Shown here: positions 34,207 through 44,036 of the stretch, in pieces
How positions within the stretch are numbered: the stretch's first letter is position 1
Layout: every line of letters starts with the position of its first letter
Assembly: GCA_022424905.1 (NCBI GenBank)
Contig: JAKMGP010000139.1
Span: forward strand, 1 to 44,410
Direction of reading: 5' to 3'
Source: Akkermansiaceae bacterium
Lineage (GTDB): Bacteria; Verrucomicrobiota; Verrucomicrobiia; Verrucomicrobiales; Akkermansiaceae
Length of the DNA stretch: 44,410 bases
Translations under genes and position numbers: made by a program
Notes under the pieces: model-generated
Told to the model about the DNA's origin: nothing
Databases searched by the model: none
The model's input: only the letters and a program-made list of their open reading frames with translations

Positions 34207-34893
34207 TCAATCCTTTCTTTGGATGCCTTGGCTTTTCAGAGATTCCCCAGACTCTCGTTTCCCCAGAATTTCGTTCAATACGCAATCTTGTTTCCTCCGC
34301 CGTTTTCGAAAAACCCTTTTTTGCTCCCTTCGGAACCATTTTGCCAATGGAATCAACTGGCCAAAGGCATAACCATCGATTGCGAAGATTTGACACCTTC
34401 CATCCGCTTTTACCTGCACGGACAGATTGTCAGGTCGCGCTTCTACAAAGACCCAATGCTTGTCGAGCTGTTGCCAAAATTCTTCTAATGCTGCTTCACA
34501 CTCGGGAGTTAAACCATGTTGCCACACGTACTCTTTGAGCGAGAGAGAAACCTTTCCGTCGAAGTCTGTGATAAGATCCACTTCCAGCACAGGCCCCAAA
34601 TCTGAATCGACCATTTCATAGGCATGAGCCACGAAGTCCCAAGCAGGAGGCCCCACTCGCCGGGACAAGACCCGCGAAAAATGCAATTCTCCCTCATTCT
34701 CATGATAATACCACTTTGGACGCAAGAATCGCGCCACCGAATTGGCCCTCTTCCATCGATCACATTTATGCCAGTCCTCGGTCATCAACTTGAGACACCG
34801 GTCGCTTTTCTCGGGGTGGAGATAAACCTCACGATGATTCCCATGGGCAAAAGGACGTTGGTCACTTAAAATGATCACTTTTTCAATATCCAT
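34207..34893 (-). CDS. yrbL: YrbL-like protein, kinase fold
   Basis: A 228-residue cytosolic protein resembling YrbL, a PhoP-regulated kinase-like protein of E. coli. Kinase-like landmarks are GNHREVY (18-24) as the glycine loop, Lys35 in CLKLM, a catalytic-loop analogue EARPDNLSV (151-159) with Asn156, and AIDGYAFG (171-178) as the DFG-like metal site. The basic C-terminal tail (KWFRREQKRVFRKRRRK) is unusual. Its substrate is unknown. The ATG at 34893 is chosen because the extra 27 residues to 34974 lie in the divergent promoter region and look non-coding. Confidence 0.8.
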   Translation of the reverse strand: MDIEKVIILSDQRPFAHGNHREVYLHPEKSDRCLKLMTEDWHKCDRWKRANSVARFLRPKWYYHENEGELHFSRVLSRRVGPPAWDFVAHAYEMVDSDLGPVLEVDLITDFDGKVSLSLKEYVWQHGLTPECEAALEEFWQQLDKHWVFVEARPDNLSVQVKADGRCQIFAIDGYAFGQLIPLAKWFRREQKRVFRKRRRKQDCVLNEILGKRESGESLKSQGIQRKD

Positions 34894-34986
34894 AAACACT
34901 CCGAAATGGCAAGATAAGCCCCACTGCAAAATTTCTCTTTTTTGTAACAGATCATTTGTCGGCCTGCTATACATACTAGCAAAGTC

Positions 34987-36138
34987 ATGTCTTCAAAAAC
35001 GAAACTCCTTTCTACCATCGCACTCCTCGTTTTCGCGCTGGCTGTCGCGGTCTTTTTTATTTTTCGTAATGACAATCCTACGAAAACCGTCCTCACCGCA
35101 GAGCAGCTCTCCCGCTTTGAGGAAGGCATGTTTTATCGGACAATAGTAACCTCAACAGTTCAGGGACAAGTCGAAGATAGAGATTGGGGTCTCGGAAAGA
35201 AAATCACTCTCATTCACGAAGGCGAGACCGATTTTGTTCGCGAAGTAAAATCCGTTACCCAGGATCATACCGAAGTAGTGGTCGGCTTAGAAATTCTCAC
35301 AGCCCGCGATCTTGAAGTAACACTGGCTCTTGATGACGTGAATCTGCATCTCCCACCGGCCGTCGGAATTCTAGGAAGAGGAGCACGCAAAATCTTACTT
35401 CCCGGCCCGGAAGGTATCGCAATCGACATCGCCACTGATCGCGCCGCGGAATGGTTAAGAAGCGACGTCAATCGCCAAAAAGTTCTCTCGCGGATTAATT
35501 TCGCCGTTAAAGGCATGACCGGACAGGGTCTCGAAGAACACCTTCTCGAAGCTAAGCTCCAACCCCTTGAAGCCTATGAAGGTCTTACAGCTGAATACAC
35601 CTATGAAGCCGGTGAAGGACTCGTTGATTTTCAAACTAAGGCCACCCTTTCTAAGGAGAAAGAAGATCGGGTCAAAAACTTTTCAGTCTACAGCGAAGCT
35701 TACCTTCTTCCTGATACTGATCCCAATGGTCCCGATGAATGGGATGTTGATGTCAAGACCATCGCCCACCTACTGGCGCCCAGTAACGACCTTGATGTCA
35801 GCGGCACCCTGACCTTGAAGCGCGACTCGACCTACGGCGATGAAACACGTCTAAAAATTGTAAAAGGTAAGGTTGTCTTTTCTGGCTCCACCGACAAAAA
35901 CCAAGTCCTCGGAACTTGGGCCGCGCGCGGCTCCCTTTATTACAACCTGAAGACTCATAGCATTGTCGAAGGCAACCTGACCGGAGAAGTCTCGCTCGAA
36001 AGAAAGAGTACTGACCACGTTCTCTTCGAGAAAACTTTTAAAACTAAACCCAGCTACCGCGTCATTATAAAAGGTTACGCTACTAAGGACCCTAACCAAG
36101 CCCGCAAAGAAATTACTGGCGAGAAAACAGAGCGATGA
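34987..36138 (+). CDS. Membrane-anchored protein, first gene of the ABC half-transporter operon
   Basis: A 383-residue protein with a single N-terminal helix (about 7-26, STIALLVFALAVAVFFIF) and a large extracytoplasmic domain. The domain is mostly beta, with repeated hydrophobic strands (ITLIHEGETDFVREVKSV, HTEVVVGLEILTARDLEVTL, LTGEVSLERKSTDHVLF) and a central NRQKVLSRINFAVKGMTG. No known catalytic motif or family is recognised. The stop overlaps the ABC gene start (ATGA), so it is coupled to the transporter and may be a substrate-handling or periplasmic accessory subunit. The 93-bp gap to divergent yrbL should hold its promoter. Confidence 0.75.
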   Translation: MSSKTKLLSTIALLVFALAVAVFFIFRNDNPTKTVLTAEQLSRFEEGMFYRTIVTSTVQGQVEDRDWGLGKKITLIHEGETDFVREVKSVTQDHTEVVVGLEILTARDLEVTLALDDVNLHLPPAVGILGRGARKILLPGPEGIAIDIATDRAAEWLRSDVNRQKVLSRINFAVKGMTGQGLEEHLLEAKLQPLEAYEGLTAEYTYEAGEGLVDFQTKATLSKEKEDRVKNFSVYSEAYLLPDTDPNGPDEWDVDVKTIAHLLAPSNDLDVSGTLTLKRDSTYGDETRLKIVKGKVVFSGSTDKNQVLGTWAARGSLYYNLKTHSIVEGNLTGEVSLERKSTDHVLFEKTFKTKPSYRVIIKGYATKDPNQARKEITGEKTER

Positions 36139-37805
36139 TTAAGGGCGCAATTGGTTTGCAAATTGAGGGACTCACGATTCGTCAGAAGGACCTTACCATT
36201 CTTGACCACCTTTCACTCCACTTCGAGGCTGGTTCGCTGACCGGGCTCATCGGACCAAGTGGAGCAGGAAAAACAACCTTACTTCGAACTCTTGGACTGC
36301 GCCCCCCCAGCAAAAAGAATAAAGATCTCGGAATCGTTTCCATCATTGCGGGAACCGAGGCGACCCGGATTTCTGGAGCCAATCACCAGTCTCTTCTTGA
36401 AATCCTATCCTATGTTCCTCAGCAAGATCTTTTCCCGGATTACGCCAAAGTCGGTGAGGTCCTTGAAGAAGCACTCATCTTCTCCGGTTACGATGCCAGT
36501 CCTCTTTCAATTCTAGGGTCTGTAAACCTTTCCAAGGATTTTCTTGGAAAGGCTGTTTCACAACTTTCCGGCGGAGAAAGGCGCCGTCTCTCCCTAGCCC
36601 GGGCCCTTTGCTCCGGGCCTCGCATTCTCCTACTTGATGAGCCCACAAGTGGCCTCGACCTACCGGTAGCCCACGAAGTGATGCAGCTTTTACGGGAGCT
36701 TTGTGATCGCCACAACCTAACCATCGTGGTCACCAGCCATCTGCCCGGAACACTCGCAGTTTGCGATCGTGTCCTCGTAATGGAGAAAGGGGGAAAGCTG
36801 AGAGCGGATTACCGAGATATTCCAACCTTGCTTACCACCACTGCTGAAGCGGATCTATTTGAAAAAAGCACCTCAATTACACCAATCAAATCTTTTGACT
36901 ATATCGACTCTACTGACTCCAGTCGTGATTGGTGGAACCTCCACCACTTCGGAGTGATATTCCGACGCTCCGCCCGCCAATCTTTCCGTGACTACGGAGC
37001 CGCGGGCGTCACCATCATCCTACCCATTTTTCTGGCCGGGCTAATCGTATTTGCGCAATCACTTCACGGAAACAACAGCCCACGCTTCATTAACTTCTTC
37101 CTTTCGATCGCAGCTCTATGGATTGGAATGTCGCTCACAATCCGGGAAATAATTTCAACCCGCGCGCTTTACGCGATTGATGAACTCAGCGGACTCGGGA
37201 AATTCTCTTTTTTCCATGCTAAATCCGCCTTTGCTACCTTAATCGTAATTTTTAGCACTCTCCTTCTTTGCATCTCAACTTGGTTCTTTGTGTCCCTTTT
37301 TAACATCGACCCAAACGCAGTGGAATCTTCGGACTGGTTCGATGCTCGTGACTTCATTTCGCACTTTTTTATACTAGGTATCGTCTGCTTCTCAGGAACT
37401 ATGATCGGTCTATTGCTTTCGACCCTAGCCCGCTCCGAGCGGGGCGCGGTTGCCATGATGCCTATCGTTCTCCTTCCCCATGTTCTTCTCAGTAAATACG
37501 CCACCGGCTTTGCGGGAGAAGCGAACGACGCGCGCCTTACCCATCCATTCCACAGTCTTGATTTGAATAAGATCGACTACTCCAGCTTCACCTTAATCGA
37601 ACAAGGAAATTTTTGGGCTAGTCTCTTCGCATCCACTCGACACGCCACCTCAGTTTTTGATCAACTCGGTTCCGCTCGATTTTCCTTCAGCCAGATTTTT
37701 GGACTGGATTTTTGGGCTTTAATCATTCTCGTCACTAGTCAGGCGCTTCTGACTCTCATCATCTTCTGCTATTCCGCAAACTCTGCCATCCGACGAATCA
37801 AATGA
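36135..37805 (+). CDS. ABCG-like half-transporter (ATPase fused to ABC-2-type permease)
   Basis: The 556-residue protein has an N-terminal ATPase (1-230): Walker A GPSGAGKTT (40-48), Q-loop PQQD (95-98), signature LSGGERRRLSLARAL (144-158), Walker B ILLLDEPTSGLD (164-175) and H-loop VTSHLP with His202. A linker (about 230-270) leads to about six membrane helices (from 285 to the end), with a long loop before the last, as in ABC-2/ABCG exporters. It likely works as a homodimer and exports an unknown lipid, peptide or small molecule. It overlaps membrane-anchored proteins on both sides by 4 bp, which points to a dedicated complex. Confidence 0.92.
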   Translation: MIKGAIGLQIEGLTIRQKDLTILDHLSLHFEAGSLTGLIGPSGAGKTTLLRTLGLRPPSKKNKDLGIVSIIAGTEATRISGANHQSLLEILSYVPQQDLFPDYAKVGEVLEEALIFSGYDASPLSILGSVNLSKDFLGKAVSQLSGGERRRLSLARALCSGPRILLLDEPTSGLDLPVAHEVMQLLRELCDRHNLTIVVTSHLPGTLAVCDRVLVMEKGGKLRADYRDIPTLLTTTAEADLFEKSTSITPIKSFDYIDSTDSSRDWWNLHHFGVIFRRSARQSFRDYGAAGVTIILPIFLAGLIVFAQSLHGNNSPRFINFFLSIAALWIGMSLTIREIISTRALYAIDELSGLGKFSFFHAKSAFATLIVIFSTLLLCISTWFFVSLFNIDPNAVESSDWFDARDFISHFFILGIVCFSGTMIGLLLSTLARSERGAVAMMPIVLLPHVLLSKYATGFAGEANDARLTHPFHSLDLNKIDYSSFTLIEQGNFWASLFASTRHATSVFDQLGSARFSFSQIFGLDFWALIILVTSQALLTLIIFCYSANSAIRRIK

Positions 37806-39019
37806 GCAAACTCGACCCCATCGATAATGGAGTCCGGCGCTTCCGACCGGGAGTAATGATGGCACTCTGCGTCTTCTTTTTAATCGGCAGCGCTGCTCTA
37901 GTCTTTCAAAAGGTTCAAAACAAGCAGAGTGATTCCAATCTACCCCTCCCAACTAGCAAAATCAGCAAAGAGATTGAGAGGGTCCGGGGTAACCAGGGTC
38001 CACCGCCCATCCGACCATCTATCCATCCACTCAAGGGAAAACACCGATTCTTTCTCGCTGATGGCTGTCTCTACCGCTATCAGGAACTCAGCTTTACCCG
38101 TAATTTTAGTAATCAACACAATCATCCCGGCGCGGTCATTCGCGAAGGTGATCCTTGCCTCTGGAAGCTCGTAGGAATCTCCGGAAAAGAAGATGTTTAT
38201 CAGATCTTTTGCGCCGACCCTAATTTTCCTGATCTTCACGAACACAACCTCACTTACACTCGTTTTCAGGAAGACGGTGTCCCCCAAAATGACCATAGTC
38301 CCTTTATTACTCTCCGTAAAGACGACTACTGCGAATGGCAGATCCGCAAAGCGGGACCCAAGGACCAATACGAAGTATATTGCCTCAGCGGAAACAGCCC
38401 ATTTAAAGACGCCAGTCTTGCTTGGACCGACAAGCAAGAGGATCTCTCTTCAGATTTACTCTCCGCCACCCTCGGAGAAAACGGCAATCCTTCTTGGTGG
38501 ATCCTCCCAAAAGGTGAAAGCCCAAAAATCCCGCGCCGATCTTCTCACATGATTGTCATGAATCGAGGTCGGATTATGCATCAAGACGAATCATTGGAAG
38601 ACTTTGAAAAACATGGCCCTGAAATCTTCCGTGTTCAAATCAAAACAGCCGACGATAAGTTTGTGAGAGCGGCGAAACCGCTTGATTATGTCCAGCTTGT
38701 AAAGGCGATTCGTAATTCTGATCCTATCGTCAACCACCCTGATTTTCCAGCACTCATTGAGATGAATCCTTTAGCTCTTCTCGAGGGAGAGATTTCACTG
38801 AAACGTAAAGATCCAATGTTCCCCTTTATCGTTCCGCTCAAAGTGGCGCTCTACCCACATCTCATCCAAGAAATTAAGATGGAAAATACAAAATTTTGGA
38901 AAAACGATTGGGAAATCCTTGAGGACTTTCAAAGCCACCTCGACGAATCTGATATTGCCGACGGTCGCGTCTATCAAGGCACTAGGTTCACCTACATATT
39001 TATTTCATGGGATCCATGA
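37802..39019 (+). CDS. Membrane-anchored protein with tandem Cys/Trp repeats
   Basis: The 405-residue protein has one N-terminal helix (about 17-35) and a Pro-rich linker. The core holds two clear repeats and a weaker third: C119-L-W...YQIFC137 and C177-E-W...YEVYC194, then a SWWILP segment (231-236) without the cysteines. The repeats are about 58 residues apart and look like beta-trefoil-type units with an intrachain disulfide in each, suiting an oxidising compartment outside the cytoplasm. A C-terminal mixed domain (250-405) has no known motif. It overlaps the ABC gene and likely works with it. Family unknown. Confidence 0.72.
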   Translation: MSKLDPIDNGVRRFRPGVMMALCVFFLIGSAALVFQKVQNKQSDSNLPLPTSKISKEIERVRGNQGPPPIRPSIHPLKGKHRFFLADGCLYRYQELSFTRNFSNQHNHPGAVIREGDPCLWKLVGISGKEDVYQIFCADPNFPDLHEHNLTYTRFQEDGVPQNDHSPFITLRKDDYCEWQIRKAGPKDQYEVYCLSGNSPFKDASLAWTDKQEDLSSDLLSATLGENGNPSWWILPKGESPKIPRRSSHMIVMNRGRIMHQDESLEDFEKHGPEIFRVQIKTADDKFVRAAKPLDYVQLVKAIRNSDPIVNHPDFPALIEMNPLALLEGEISLKRKDPMFPFIVPLKVALYPHLIQEIKMENTKFWKNDWEILEDFQSHLDESDIADGRVYQGTRFTYIFISWDP

Positions 39020-39081
39020 AGCCCCTTGCGAGAAAAGCGTAGAAGAGGACCTAAACAAACCAAGATAAGCAGATTAGCGAG

Positions 39082-40302
39082 ATGGAACCTAAATTGACCA
39101 AATATTGGTTCGCGATCTACGTGCTCGCGGCCCTATTGACACTTGGCGGTTTTTTGAATCTTGGCATCTATTTTGGACCATTGTTAGAGGCATGGTTATT
39201 GGCAAAACTTGTTCCAGAAGTTTGGCACCCGGCAGTCGATGACCTCATTCATCGGCTTTTCTTTGAAGAATTTCGGGCATTCCTTGTCACGACCGGTTTT
39301 GGGCTAGGAATCATCATTGTTGGAATGGCTCTCTTTCCCCTGAAAGAAAAACTCTCGACGATTTATGAAGGAGAACGGTTTCCCGAACTCGAAAAACAAC
39401 GCCCCCACCCCCTCTGGCGTCAGGGTTTGGAGGAGGTAAAGCTAGCTTTTCTCTATCTTCTACTACAAGGAATGAGCTTCTTTCTAGCCGTCCAAGGCTA
39501 TCCTTTTTTAGCGGCACTTGGTGGGTCTCTCTCAATCGTCTACCTAGTGACCGCGATGGCCTTGGACCATTGTTCACCATTTTTTCAGCGCCGTAATCAA
39601 AAGATCCATGGCATTATCTGGATCCTTCTGCGGCACGCCCCCCTACGCACTACTTTACTTGGTCTTATCTGCATCGGTCCCGTCATTATTCTCGAGCGTC
39701 ACCTTTCAGCGTCACTCGAACCAACAGTCGCGATCGCTATTCTCGTCTTAAGCGAAGTTCTTGGGATGGCCTGCGCAACCCTTCTTGGGTGTCATCTCGG
39801 TTCGGCTCTCTTGAAAAAAGAAACTATCCTTCCCAGCCAACATCCTCCGAAATTGTGGACCTTTTCCTACCGGGTTACGATTTTTATTCTCACCATTTGG
39901 CTTGGAGTATTTTTTAGCTGGTGGGGAAACGGCGTGTACACTCATTACCAAATCATGAGATGCCAATACCAACCTCTCTGGAAAAGGACCGAATTCAAGA
40001 TTCGAGGAACCAAAGCTCTGGTAACCCTTCCACTACGAATTCAAAATAAATCGTCCAAACCCCTCGACGTTGGCAAACTCCAAATTGAGATGGACGGCGA
40101 AGGCATCCTCGACGGAGAGGTCATCCTCGACGGATCAACCATCCAGACTGGTGAGACCTCTATTATCTTGTTGAATTTTGAAGCTCAGCTCACTGAGGAA
40201 GCGCTTTCAGATCTTCCTCGCTTTCTCGAAGCGGAATATTCTGCACATTTGAACTTTGAGCCACCTCTCTCTACGCCTATCGCTCTGAAACTTTTTCCGT
40301 AA
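39082..40302 (+). CDS. Polytopic membrane protein with C-terminal beta domain
   Basis: A 406-residue protein with about seven hydrophobic helices in residues 10-285, including LAFLYLLLQGMSFFLAVQGY and LVTTGFGLGIIIVGMALF. The first 220 residues loosely recall the EI24/CysZ-like membrane proteins, and the soluble C-terminus (about 300-406; VTLPLRIQNKSSKPLDVGKL) resembles an LEA14-like beta-sandwich. Both comparisons are by eye and tentative. It lies 62 bp downstream of the Cys/Trp-repeat gene on the same strand, probably the last gene of the transporter cluster. No terminator was seen after it. Confidence 0.7.
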   Translation: MEPKLTKYWFAIYVLAALLTLGGFLNLGIYFGPLLEAWLLAKLVPEVWHPAVDDLIHRLFFEEFRAFLVTTGFGLGIIIVGMALFPLKEKLSTIYEGERFPELEKQRPHPLWRQGLEEVKLAFLYLLLQGMSFFLAVQGYPFLAALGGSLSIVYLVTAMALDHCSPFFQRRNQKIHGIIWILLRHAPLRTTLLGLICIGPVIILERHLSASLEPTVAIAILVLSEVLGMACATLLGCHLGSALLKKETILPSQHPPKLWTFSYRVTIFILTIWLGVFFSWWGNGVYTHYQIMRCQYQPLWKRTEFKIRGTKALVTLPLRIQNKSSKPLDVGKLQIEMDGEGILDGEVILDGSTIQTGETSIILLNFEAQLTEEALSDLPRFLEAEYSAHLNFEPPLSTPIALKLFP

Positions 40303-40562: not shown

Positions 40563-40973
40563 ATGTCCAGCGGAATTAGCATCGTTTGCGAGCCCGAAAT
40601 TGAAGACCTTGAAGGTTATTTTGAGGAATTGGCAGCAGTTTATGAACAACTGGCTGGCCTTCTGAAAGAGGAGGGAGTCGACATCCTCCCCTACCTTTTT
40701 TGTCCAGACAGCGATCTTTCCGAAGAAGAAGCTGACGCTGCGGGGTATAGCAACGAAGACAAAGCGGTCATGAAAGTCATTGTGACCGAAGATTTCCATG
40801 ACGCCGACGAAGTTTACGATGACATTAATACGGCGGCAGATCTAATCCGCGCGATGGATGATGAGATTTTTGAGAATGGTAAAGAGGCTCTTCTCCAAGA
40901 TCTCGAAAGCCTCGCCGAAACACTCGAGATTCCTGTCGAAGAGAAAGTCACCGTGCAACTTCTCCGAGCGTAA
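40563..40973 (+). CDS. Acidic hypothetical protein
   Basis: A 136-residue soluble protein of very acidic composition (many Asp and Glu). Segments include EPEIEDLEGYFEELAAVYEQ, GVDILPYLFCPDSDLSEEE and VTEDFHDADEVYDDINTAA. It is probably alpha-helical, with no signal peptide and no recognised motif. It stands alone, with a palindrome in its upstream gap and a good terminator after it. Function unknown. Confidence 0.75.
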   Translation: MSSGISIVCEPEIEDLEGYFEELAAVYEQLAGLLKEEGVDILPYLFCPDSDLSEEEADAAGYSNEDKAVMKVIVTEDFHDADEVYDDINTAADLIRAMDDEIFENGKEALLQDLESLAETLEIPVEEKVTVQLLRA

Positions 40974-42318: not shown

Positions 42319-42960
42319 TTATAAGCAAGATTGAATTGCCGACGGATCAGTATAGTCATCAAATCGCAAATCAGTTTCAATCCTCGGTCCAATTCCAATT
42401 AACTTCCAGTTGAGATTGCGACTCGCCGCGATATCCCATAATGCATCCCCAAAGTAGATCACTTCCGAGAAACGTGCTTGATGAAAGCGTGCAGCCCGAT
42501 CAAGCGCCTGAAGCATAATATGCTCTTGAACAACAGCATCCGAGGAGCTCGCAAGAGGAATGTCGGCGATTTCAAAACCCGCTGTCTCTAATTTATAACG
42601 CGCGGACGCTTCGTGGGCCCCAGTAGCAAGAGCAACCGCATAATCCGGCGACTCAACGAGAGCGCTGAAAAAATCAATCGCTCCCGGGATCGCTTGAAAC
42701 ATCGATTTTGGCTGTTCTCGGAGACCATTTACAAGGTGTGCGTGAAACGCTTTGGTGAGCGCCCCACTCATCGGTCGATCGCAGTAGCGCTGGGAAATTT
42801 CCTGAGCTATTCCGCTATCGGTCACAAATTGATATTGTGACCAGTCGGTCTCAAAGCGTTCCACCCCTAAAACCTCGCGGACGGACTGAATAAAGCATTC
42901 GGAATCAATCGCGTTTGTTTGCGTAAGAGTTCCTTCAATATCAAAGATTACAACTTTCAT
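42319..42960 (-). CDS. HAD-superfamily hydrolase with DxE motif
   Basis: A 213-residue phosphatase-like protein of the haloacid dehalogenase superfamily. Motif I is FDIEGTLT, with nucleophile Asp7 and Glu9 in place of the usual second Asp. Motif II is LATG (Thr113), a Lys at 123 may be motif III, and motif IV is YFGDALWD (Asp172/Asp176). A helical cap lies between about 15 and 85. The pattern resembles phosphoglycolate phosphatase-like proteins; DxE motif I occurs in some HAD enzymes such as enolase-phosphatase MtnC. The substrate is unknown. The start shares one base with the upstream VWA-gene stop (TAATG), so they are coupled. Confidence 0.86.
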   Translation of the reverse strand: MKVVIFDIEGTLTQTNAIDSECFIQSVREVLGVERFETDWSQYQFVTDSGIAQEISQRYCDRPMSGALTKAFHAHLVNGLREQPKSMFQAIPGAIDFFSALVESPDYAVALATGAHEASARYKLETAGFEIADIPLASSSDAVVQEHIMLQALDRAARFHQARFSEVIYFGDALWDIAASRNLNWKLIGIGPRIETDLRFDDYTDPSAIQSCL

Positions 42961-44036
42961 TAGTCGTAATCGGAACTCGTCATATCTTCAGCAGAGCCGC
43001 CAACAAGTCTCTTACCTTTGTAGATCATCGAGAATTTCCCGCCAGTTTCTTCCGCAATCATCAAAAGTTGGCCTGCGGGAGTTCCTGGAAGCTCAAAGGC
43101 AATGGTATCAATTGGAACCCCCTCTGGATTAAATTCCTCCATCTTTTCCAGAACGTAATCCGCATCAGTCGGTTCTCCGTCAGAGAGAAGGTAAACGATA
43201 TTCGGTTGCGGGCTCATGGAGAATGCCATTTTAAGAGGGGGATACCAGTTGGTTCCACCTTTAGCCGGCATTTTTTGGATCGCCTCAACTACAACGCTCT
43301 TGAGGCGCTCGGAGGCAGGATACCAATTTACCTCCGGCACTGTCCCATTTCCCCGAAATCCTTTCATGTAATGATTAGGACCTTCTGTATCGATGGTCCA
43401 ACCTGTGGTTGAGAAAAAAATCACAGACACATTCATGCTAGCCGGAAGAGAATTGATCGATCGGACGAGCTCTTTTTTTAGAGCCTGAATTCGAGTTCCG
43501 CCACCCCCTTCGGTATCCGACGCCATCGAGCCTGAGAAATCGACGATGAAAACCACATTCCTTCCTTTTCTCCGGCTACCAAAAAAGGTGGCACCACCAC
43601 CGCCATCGCCATCGCCTTCTCCAGTTCCAAATCCAGGCCCAAAATCTTCCTCCATCCCAAACAAACTATCGGGATTAGCCGTTACCGGAATAGGCACAGC
43701 CACTGGTGATTGAGACTGAGACGCGATGACCTTAGCCATCGAAGAACTTGCTCCTGGCGGCTTGGGCTGGGCATTATTAGTCAATTCCTTCATCCTAATC
43801 GGAGGTTCTTCCTCCGGGGTGGCCGCCTGATAGGTTACGATCTGGGGAATGTTCTTGGTAGTCGGAATCAGCGCGATGAGGGCGAGGATAGCGATCAAAA
43901 CACCAAATCCGAGAAGCGCGGTCACTGCCGACTGGACAGTTTCGCGACGACGCTGGCGATCCACAGCTATTTTGACAGCATGGCGATTTGCCGCGATTTG
44001 CGCGGTATCAGTTTCAGTCACATAAATGTCACTCAT
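42960..44036 (-). CDS. Membrane-anchored VWA-domain protein
   Basis: A 358-residue protein with a basic cytoplasmic N-terminus, one membrane helix (about 36-58), a Pro-rich stretch (74-95), a Gly-rich linker (133-148) and a von Willebrand A domain (about 158-340). The metal-dependent adhesion site is kept: DFSGS (166-170), Thr262 in GGTNWYPP, and Asp286 in LLSDGEPTD. The layout of N-terminal anchor, Pro-rich spacer and VWA recalls proteins beside ExbB/ExbD-like genes, but none are in view. It probably binds a ligand or partner on the periplasmic side. It is first in a two-gene unit with the HAD phosphatase. Confidence 0.88.
   Translation of the reverse strand: MSDIYVTETDTAQIAANRHAVKIAVDRQRRRETVQSAVTALLGFGVLIAILALIALIPTTKNIPQIVTYQAATPEEEPPIRMKELTNNAQPKPPGASSSMAKVIASQSQSPVAVPIPVTANPDSLFGMEEDFGPGFGTGEGDGDGGGGATFFGSRRKGRNVVFIVDFSGSMASDTEGGGGTRIQALKKELVRSINSLPASMNVSVIFFSTTGWTIDTEGPNHYMKGFRGNGTVPEVNWYPASERLKSVVVEAIQKMPAKGGTNWYPPLKMAFSMSPQPNIVYLLSDGEPTDADYVLEKMEEFNPEGVPIDTIAFELPGTPAGQLLMIAEETGGKFSMIYKGKRLVGGSAEDMTSSDYD

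Follow-up and report, generated by a model that had tools for sequence, protein, structure and literature searches.

In the LptB2FGC and LolCDE–LolA systems, an ATP-binding cassette (ABC) exporter hands its cargo to an anchored or soluble periplasmic β-protein, and in LptB2FGC and LolCDE the ATPase is separate from the permease. ABCG half-transporters, which comprise eukaryotic pigment, drug and sterol exporters and their bacterial kin, carry the ATPase first and an ABC2-type permease after it in one polypeptide. Rv1747 of Mycobacterium tuberculosis is an ABC exporter with FHA domains; export of a cell wall component was concluded from mutant data (PMC3908365), and glycolipids (phosphatidylinositol mannosides, PIMs) were proposed as its cargo, which the authors describe as still to be proven (PMC5549992). 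We compared these systems with a four-gene unit, A–D, in 44,410 nucleotides (nt) of DNA from an Akkermansiaceae bacterium of the phylum Verrucomicrobiota (assembly GCA_022424905.1, contig JAKMGP010000139.1). This stretch, referred to here as the window, is the complete contig 11 of a 4.05-Mb genome in 347 contigs. B is an ABCG-type half-transporter, and A is a membrane-anchored protein that accompanies ABC genes well beyond the window's genus. We rate the exporter architecture as known and its faithful partner A as undescribed, together with two new membrane proteins, C and D, in the genus; a search of the open-licence literature, which does not cover subscription papers, found no description of A or of the A–B pair.

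The A–B pair in the window and across the phylum

Gene A (34987–36138, + strand; 383 amino acids) encodes one N-terminal membrane helix (residues 7–25) followed by a large, probably periplasmic domain. It ends with the TGA at 36138, which overlaps the ATG of gene B at 36135 in an ATGA (36135–36138, +). Gene B (36135–37805, +; 556 amino acids) matched Pfam ABC_tran at residues 23–172 (84.4 bits, cut-off 25) and ABC2_membrane at residues 272–454 (29.6 bits, cut-off 26.9), so that the nucleotide-binding domain precedes the permease in one polypeptide; the ABCG-like exporter of the initial annotation was thereby confirmed. The ATPase motifs of B lie at residues 40–47, Q96, 144–148, 164–169 and H202. 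Its Walker A, Q-loop, signature, Walker B and H-loop residues were invariant in 13 rows from the genus, and the core motif letters were also invariant in 15 rows across the phylum. B differs from the ABCG half-transporters in its coupling to A and in its low score against the pigment precursor permease family of NCBIfam, TIGR00955 (103.8 bits, far under the cut-off of 736.35). No relatives of B were found by a search of viral contigs.

We searched for A outside the genus with profiles, at a limit of E ≤ 0.001 and in samples that overlap. Genomes with A numbered 1 of 286 and 6 of 384 in two class-level samples, 5 of 387 in a sample of the phylum, 4 of 197 in the class of G364 and 3 of 146 in the class of G487. 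The family of G314 gave 2 of 40, namely G314 again and G257, whose match (49 residues, E 0.009) was dropped because it misses the limit and has no adjoining ABC gene. This left 13 distinct genomes (G068, G116, G167, G232, G314, G364, G410, G425, G487, G529, G583, G660 and G792). In all 13 loci an ABC gene lies downstream of A on the same strand, at a distance of 2–42 bp. ABC_tran was detected in every one of these partners, and an ABC2-type permease at E ≤ 0.001 in 11, eight of them above the curated cut-off. Six distant A rows were used to build a profile, A6, and their later scores are not independent of it; L095, L096, L105, L106, L107, L108 and the first A of L097 are independent. We conclude that A is a rare, divergent family without a Pfam name that always stands beside an ABC gene where found (13/13). 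The pair is kept side by side both in the genus and in the distant loci, and the genes were not met in the unrelated contexts that would have spoken against the dedicated complex proposed in the initial annotation.

Two of the distant loci have unusual features. A divergent form of the pair at L097:5785-10649 consists of A, a separate ATPase, a possible permease frame and a second, doubtful A-like protein (E 0.004–0.008), which lies downstream and is not counted among the 13. In G116, a run of QGGN repeats at the start of the contig (L055:1-190), a low-complexity linker, precedes the A domain.

Trees of A and of B were built from 14 loci (the window, three further loci of the genus and ten of the 13 distant ones), excluding L095, L097 and L106, which are split or truncated. 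Two clades were common to both trees: G116 with G364 (support 99/98 for A and 100/100 for B) and G232 with G410 (100/100 in each). G116 belongs to the window's own family and G364 to another class-level group of the phylum, and the genomes of one family, f66 (G364, G410 and G583), were placed in three different positions. Because both trees share well-supported clades that break with taxonomy, A–B seems to travel as a unit, and the simplest reading is that A and B moved together by horizontal transfer, as expected for a two-part machine.

The distant ABC proteins also differ from window B at their N termini. In 12 of the 13, ABC_tran starts at residue 113–302, behind an N-terminal extension; it starts at residue 34 in L097 and at residue 23 in window B, which has no extension and no Pfam match to FHA at E ≤ 1. 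Pfam identifies the extension as an FHA domain in six of the 13 (L042, L054, L055, L056, L058 and L105), and five of these (all except L055) also have a Pkinase (Ser/Thr kinase) gene beside the pair. Matches to DO-GTPases, below the curated cut-off, were found in four (L058, L096, L105 and L106). In three loci (L055, L095 and L106) the contig stops close to A, so that neighbours may be missed. Within the window, A–D and the scanned neighbours include no Ser/Thr kinase gene, the only related entry being a YrbL-family gene on the other strand, and DO-GTPase and GAP1 genes are absent from the scanned genes.

An N-terminal FHA on an ABC exporter with a Ser/Thr kinase in the operon, as in L042, L054, L056, L058 and L105, is also the arrangement of Rv1747–PknF; an A-type partner is not mentioned in the available sections of the papers on that system (PMC3908365, PMC5549992), and window B differs from it in having neither FHA nor an adjoining kinase of that family, and in the additional C and D. 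DO-GTPase-like and GAP1-N2-like genes of the kind described for DO-GTPase/GAP1 systems adjoin A and the ABC gene in L058, L105, L106 and L096, whereas all of these matches are under curated cut-offs and none lies near the window unit; in the available part of that survey the word 'transporter' appears a single time and 'permease' never (Kaur et al. 2020, PMC7159879). The order at L058:6228-14001 is A, an FHA-ABC gene, a kinase gene that also matches DO-GTPase below the cut-off, and a gene resembling GAP1-N2 (E 0.046). Such a row possibly links ABC exporters to DO-GTPase systems. Judged by these neighbourhoods, the control parts around A–B look exchangeable.

Genes C and D in the window's genus

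A second ATGA overlap (37802–37805, +) couples B, which ends at 37805, to gene C, which starts at 37802, so that the exporter overlaps both of its neighbours as first described. Gene C (37802–39019, +; 405 amino acids) encodes one N-terminal membrane helix (residues 17–35), a cysteine-containing repeat region and a C-terminal domain at about residues 245–403. The polytopic protein reported to follow was found again as gene D (39082–40302, +; 406 amino acids), which starts 62 nt past the end of C and has roughly seven membrane helices, plus a tail of some 125 residues at the C terminus of the protein. All four open reading frames were confirmed at these coordinates and run in the same direction, and simple hydropathy predicts one helix in A, about six in B, one in C and about seven in D, in agreement with the single-helix anchors assigned to the two proteins flanking B.

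The A/B overlap is 4 nt in all 13 loci of the genus (the window and 12 relatives; the B start codon of L024 is ATA), and the B/C overlap is 4 nt in 12 of the 13, with a 5-nt gap in L027. The C/D spacing is variable: 61–62 nt in the window and its closest relatives, an overlap of 4 nt in three loci and of 13 nt in one, and 493 nt in one, while two loci end before D and C is frame-broken in another. The arrangement of A–D exceeds chance, since the overlaps are conserved across the window and 12 relatives. A scan for promoter and terminator consensus sequences found fewer promoter-like sites than in shuffled sequence and was uninformative.

We searched 58 genomes, 27 of the window's genus (its own genome included) and 31 of other genera. 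A was present in 14 of the 27, C in 13 and D in 13, and none of the three was detected in the 31 genomes of other genera. The unit is kept in 13 genomes of the genus, and one more holds a deletion scar. A, C and D are all-or-none in the genus, barring two explained cases. In G020 the contig ends inside C. In G003 a scar (L028:6209-6764) of about 100 A codons, without a start and with two stops, runs into the last 84 codons of D, and the genes flanking it are still in place; most simply, the middle of the operon was lost by one deletion. In G023 (L018), C changes frame near codons 28–37, which may be a sequencing error.

Ratios of non-synonymous to synonymous substitution rates (dN/dS) against the window genes were 0.056–0.097 for A and 0.068–0.154 for B (each computable in 10 of 12 pairs), 0.103–0.209 for C (5 of 9) and 0.094–0.269 for D (7 of 8); dS exceeded 1 in the more distant comparisons, and no value was obtained for pairs at saturation. 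A–D are under purifying selection in the genus.

The flanking proteins had been described as belonging to no known family, and A, C and D indeed joined none, related or unrelated, at the curated cut-offs of Pfam and NCBIfam. In profile searches against solved structures, the rows obtained for A and C did not exceed chance, and D gave no rows. AlphaFold models of A and C were poor (mean pLDDT, the model confidence score, 45.0 and 49.6); Foldseek found nothing for either at E ≤ 0.001, and the best VIA-align Z score was 5.1 for each, against a stated noise level of 8. The proposal that the flanking proteins are β-rich is in line with these low-confidence models. The C model is better at residues 251–320 (block means 61–84) and 341–405 (55–84), and the top 25 fold rows for residues 245–403 are mostly C2 domains, with a best Z of 5.1 (3.7 Å, 92 aligned residues) that is under the noise level. 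The C-terminal domain of C is possibly C2-like; Pfam gave no match to a C2 domain in this part. C has at least two tandem repeats, at about 80–131 and 132–188, which match each other (P = 1.9e-6), and a tentative third (190–240) matches them weakly (P = 0.012 and 0.16), from which a β-trefoil may tentatively be proposed. Of the six cysteines in C, five lie past the membrane helix. Four of these five show no variation among 10 rows, and the remaining one is retained in 9 of 10; since the cysteines after the helix are conserved, an exposure of C outside the cytoplasm would fit.

Profile comparison gave no support for a relationship between C and A, and no relation of C or D to A or B was seen. 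The same method did not support kinship of the C-terminal domain of C to the C-terminal tails of neighbours in distant loci, of C or D to the kinase of L042, or of D to the third protein of L057, L107 and L108. Searches of 178 further genomes of the class detected neither C nor D, although the few, similar rows of their profiles would miss distant kin. Within the samples searched, C and D belong to the unit in this genus only and look like local additions. The dedicated complex of the initial annotation is well supported for A and B, by the 13 distant loci and the shared clades, and may extend to C and D in this genus only; its treatment of A and C as equivalent did not hold, A being a core partner across the phylum.

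A proposed export machine and its competing explanations

Because the pair recurs side by side in distant Verrucomicrobiota, often near signalling proteins, A–B is probably one working machine. On balance, and with slightly better than even confidence, we favour A and B as a two-part inner-membrane export machine in which A is the periplasmic subunit and the control parts are exchangeable. The analogy with Rv1747 suggests A as a periplasmic subunit of B and the extension as a cytoplasmic switch; the gene layout, the domain content, the joint inheritance of A and B across the phylum, the lack of the extension in the genus and the genus-only C and D are what the data show, and physical contact, outward transport, a cargo and switching are what we infer for the pair. 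B, probably a dimer as in other half-transporters, would spend cytoplasmic ATP on the export of a substrate, for which a hydrophobic or lipid-linked molecule of the envelope is most likely; a lipid-like cargo is a guess by analogy. A would be anchored beside B via its single helix, and its periplasmic domain would take the substrate or steady the permease. In most relatives, the N-terminal extension, often FHA, would let an adjoining Ser/Thr kinase or GTPase-like protein switch the ABC protein. In the window's genus, the cytoplasmic extension is absent and the membrane proteins C and D have been added, which would either replace the control exerted by the extension or join in hand-over; control or hand-over would then be set from the periplasmic side.

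Several observations weigh against this reading. The unit contains no gene for biosynthesis or for a cargo that would point to a substrate. Pfam scores for the permease fall short of the cut-off in L042, L054 and L055, and the candidate permeases of L095 and L097 are each encoded by a separate reading frame that comes next and bears no Pfam name. The trees carry long-branch warnings (L054 and L096, and in B also L055/L056 with L058/L105), and 13 of the 27 genomes of the genus live without the unit. Direct A–B contact is conjectural, the model of A being of insufficient quality (mean pLDDT 45.0) to assess it. Regulatory neighbours without an obvious cargo would also suit a signalling role.

The main rival builds on that last point. 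BceAB and FtsEX are precedents for ABC proteins that serve as transmembrane signal devices, and the ABC protein here might likewise be no pump, with A, C and D sensing the envelope and the ATPase cycle informing cytoplasmic kinases or GTPases in other lineages. The signalling proteins beside the distant pairs (kinases in 5 of 13 loci, sub-threshold DO-GTPase matches in 4 of 13) and the lack of biosynthetic genes in the unit suit this idea. We nevertheless consider it rather unlikely, as the permease half is of the export type and the ATPase motifs are intact, and in the genus, which has no cytoplasmic signalling parts beside the unit, the signal would have no receiver. Alternatively, A might act as a bridge or carrier comparable to LptC or LolA; the unit would then deliver lipids or lipoproteins to the outer membrane, and C and D would be components of the bridge. 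An anchored, probably β-rich protein of the periplasm, encoded next to an ABC exporter in a phylum of diderms, would suit such a delivery line, and the weak fold rows of A include LptD, CETP and LBP; those rows have Z ≤ 5, within noise, for a model of mean pLDDT 45, none of 22 A rows scanned with Pfam matched any family, LptC- and LolA-type partners included, and B fuses ATPase and permease, unlike LptBFG or LolCDE. For these systems the likeness is an analogy for how A might work, and as an account of the unit we hold it to be unlikely, a little more so than a signal device.

That the unit serves competition or self-protection by exporting a toxin, peptide or drug is improbable in our view. 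ABCG-type proteins do include drug exporters and a patchy presence in the genus suits an optional trait, whereas the unit holds no cargo, maturation or immunity gene, and PADLOC returned no match for A, C or D and only ATPase-level matches for B. The least probable account is that the four genes form an accidental row without a common function. C and D show no kinship to A or B and do not accompany the pair outside the genus in the samples searched; the all-or-none presence in the genus, the conserved overlaps and the joint occurrence of A and B in all 13 distant loci argue the other way, and for A–B an accident is already strongly disfavoured.

Returning to an A–B export machine, a bolder form of it can be put forward only tentatively: the pair might represent an undescribed class of signal-gated export machines of Verrucomicrobiota with A as an obligate periplasmic subunit. 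In most lineages, such machines would carry out the output of switches of the kinase and DO-GTPase/GAP1-like kinds, and in one marine Akkermansiaceae genus C and D would have shifted their control to the periplasm. A would offer a concrete, testable partner for bacterial ABCG-type exporters that lack known cargo or accessory parts, and the pair ties such exporters to kinase and GTPase switches. With an ABC gene next to it at each of the 13 distant loci, A can be used to track down the remaining members of the class, and the window's genus is a natural experiment, having the same core without the cytoplasmic extension.

Genes flanking the unit

Upstream of A on the opposite strand lies the YrbL-family gene (34207–34974, −; 92.1 bits, cut-off 31.5), whose longest frame starts 12 bp from the start of A and is read away from it. 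Some relatives have it next to the unit and L020 has it in broken form, while no match to it was detected beside the unit in L022, L023 and L025 or at the scar locus L028, for which reason it was not counted as part of the unit. Downstream, a gene for a 136-amino-acid protein with no family above cut-off (40563–40973, +) adjoins the unit in 9 of the 13 loci of the genus, a count that includes the scar locus L028; the remaining four (L024–L027) end before its position. Farther on, an anchored von Willebrand factor A protein (42960–44036, −) is 76–98% identical in relatives with full coverage, and further conserved genes lie between it and the unit.

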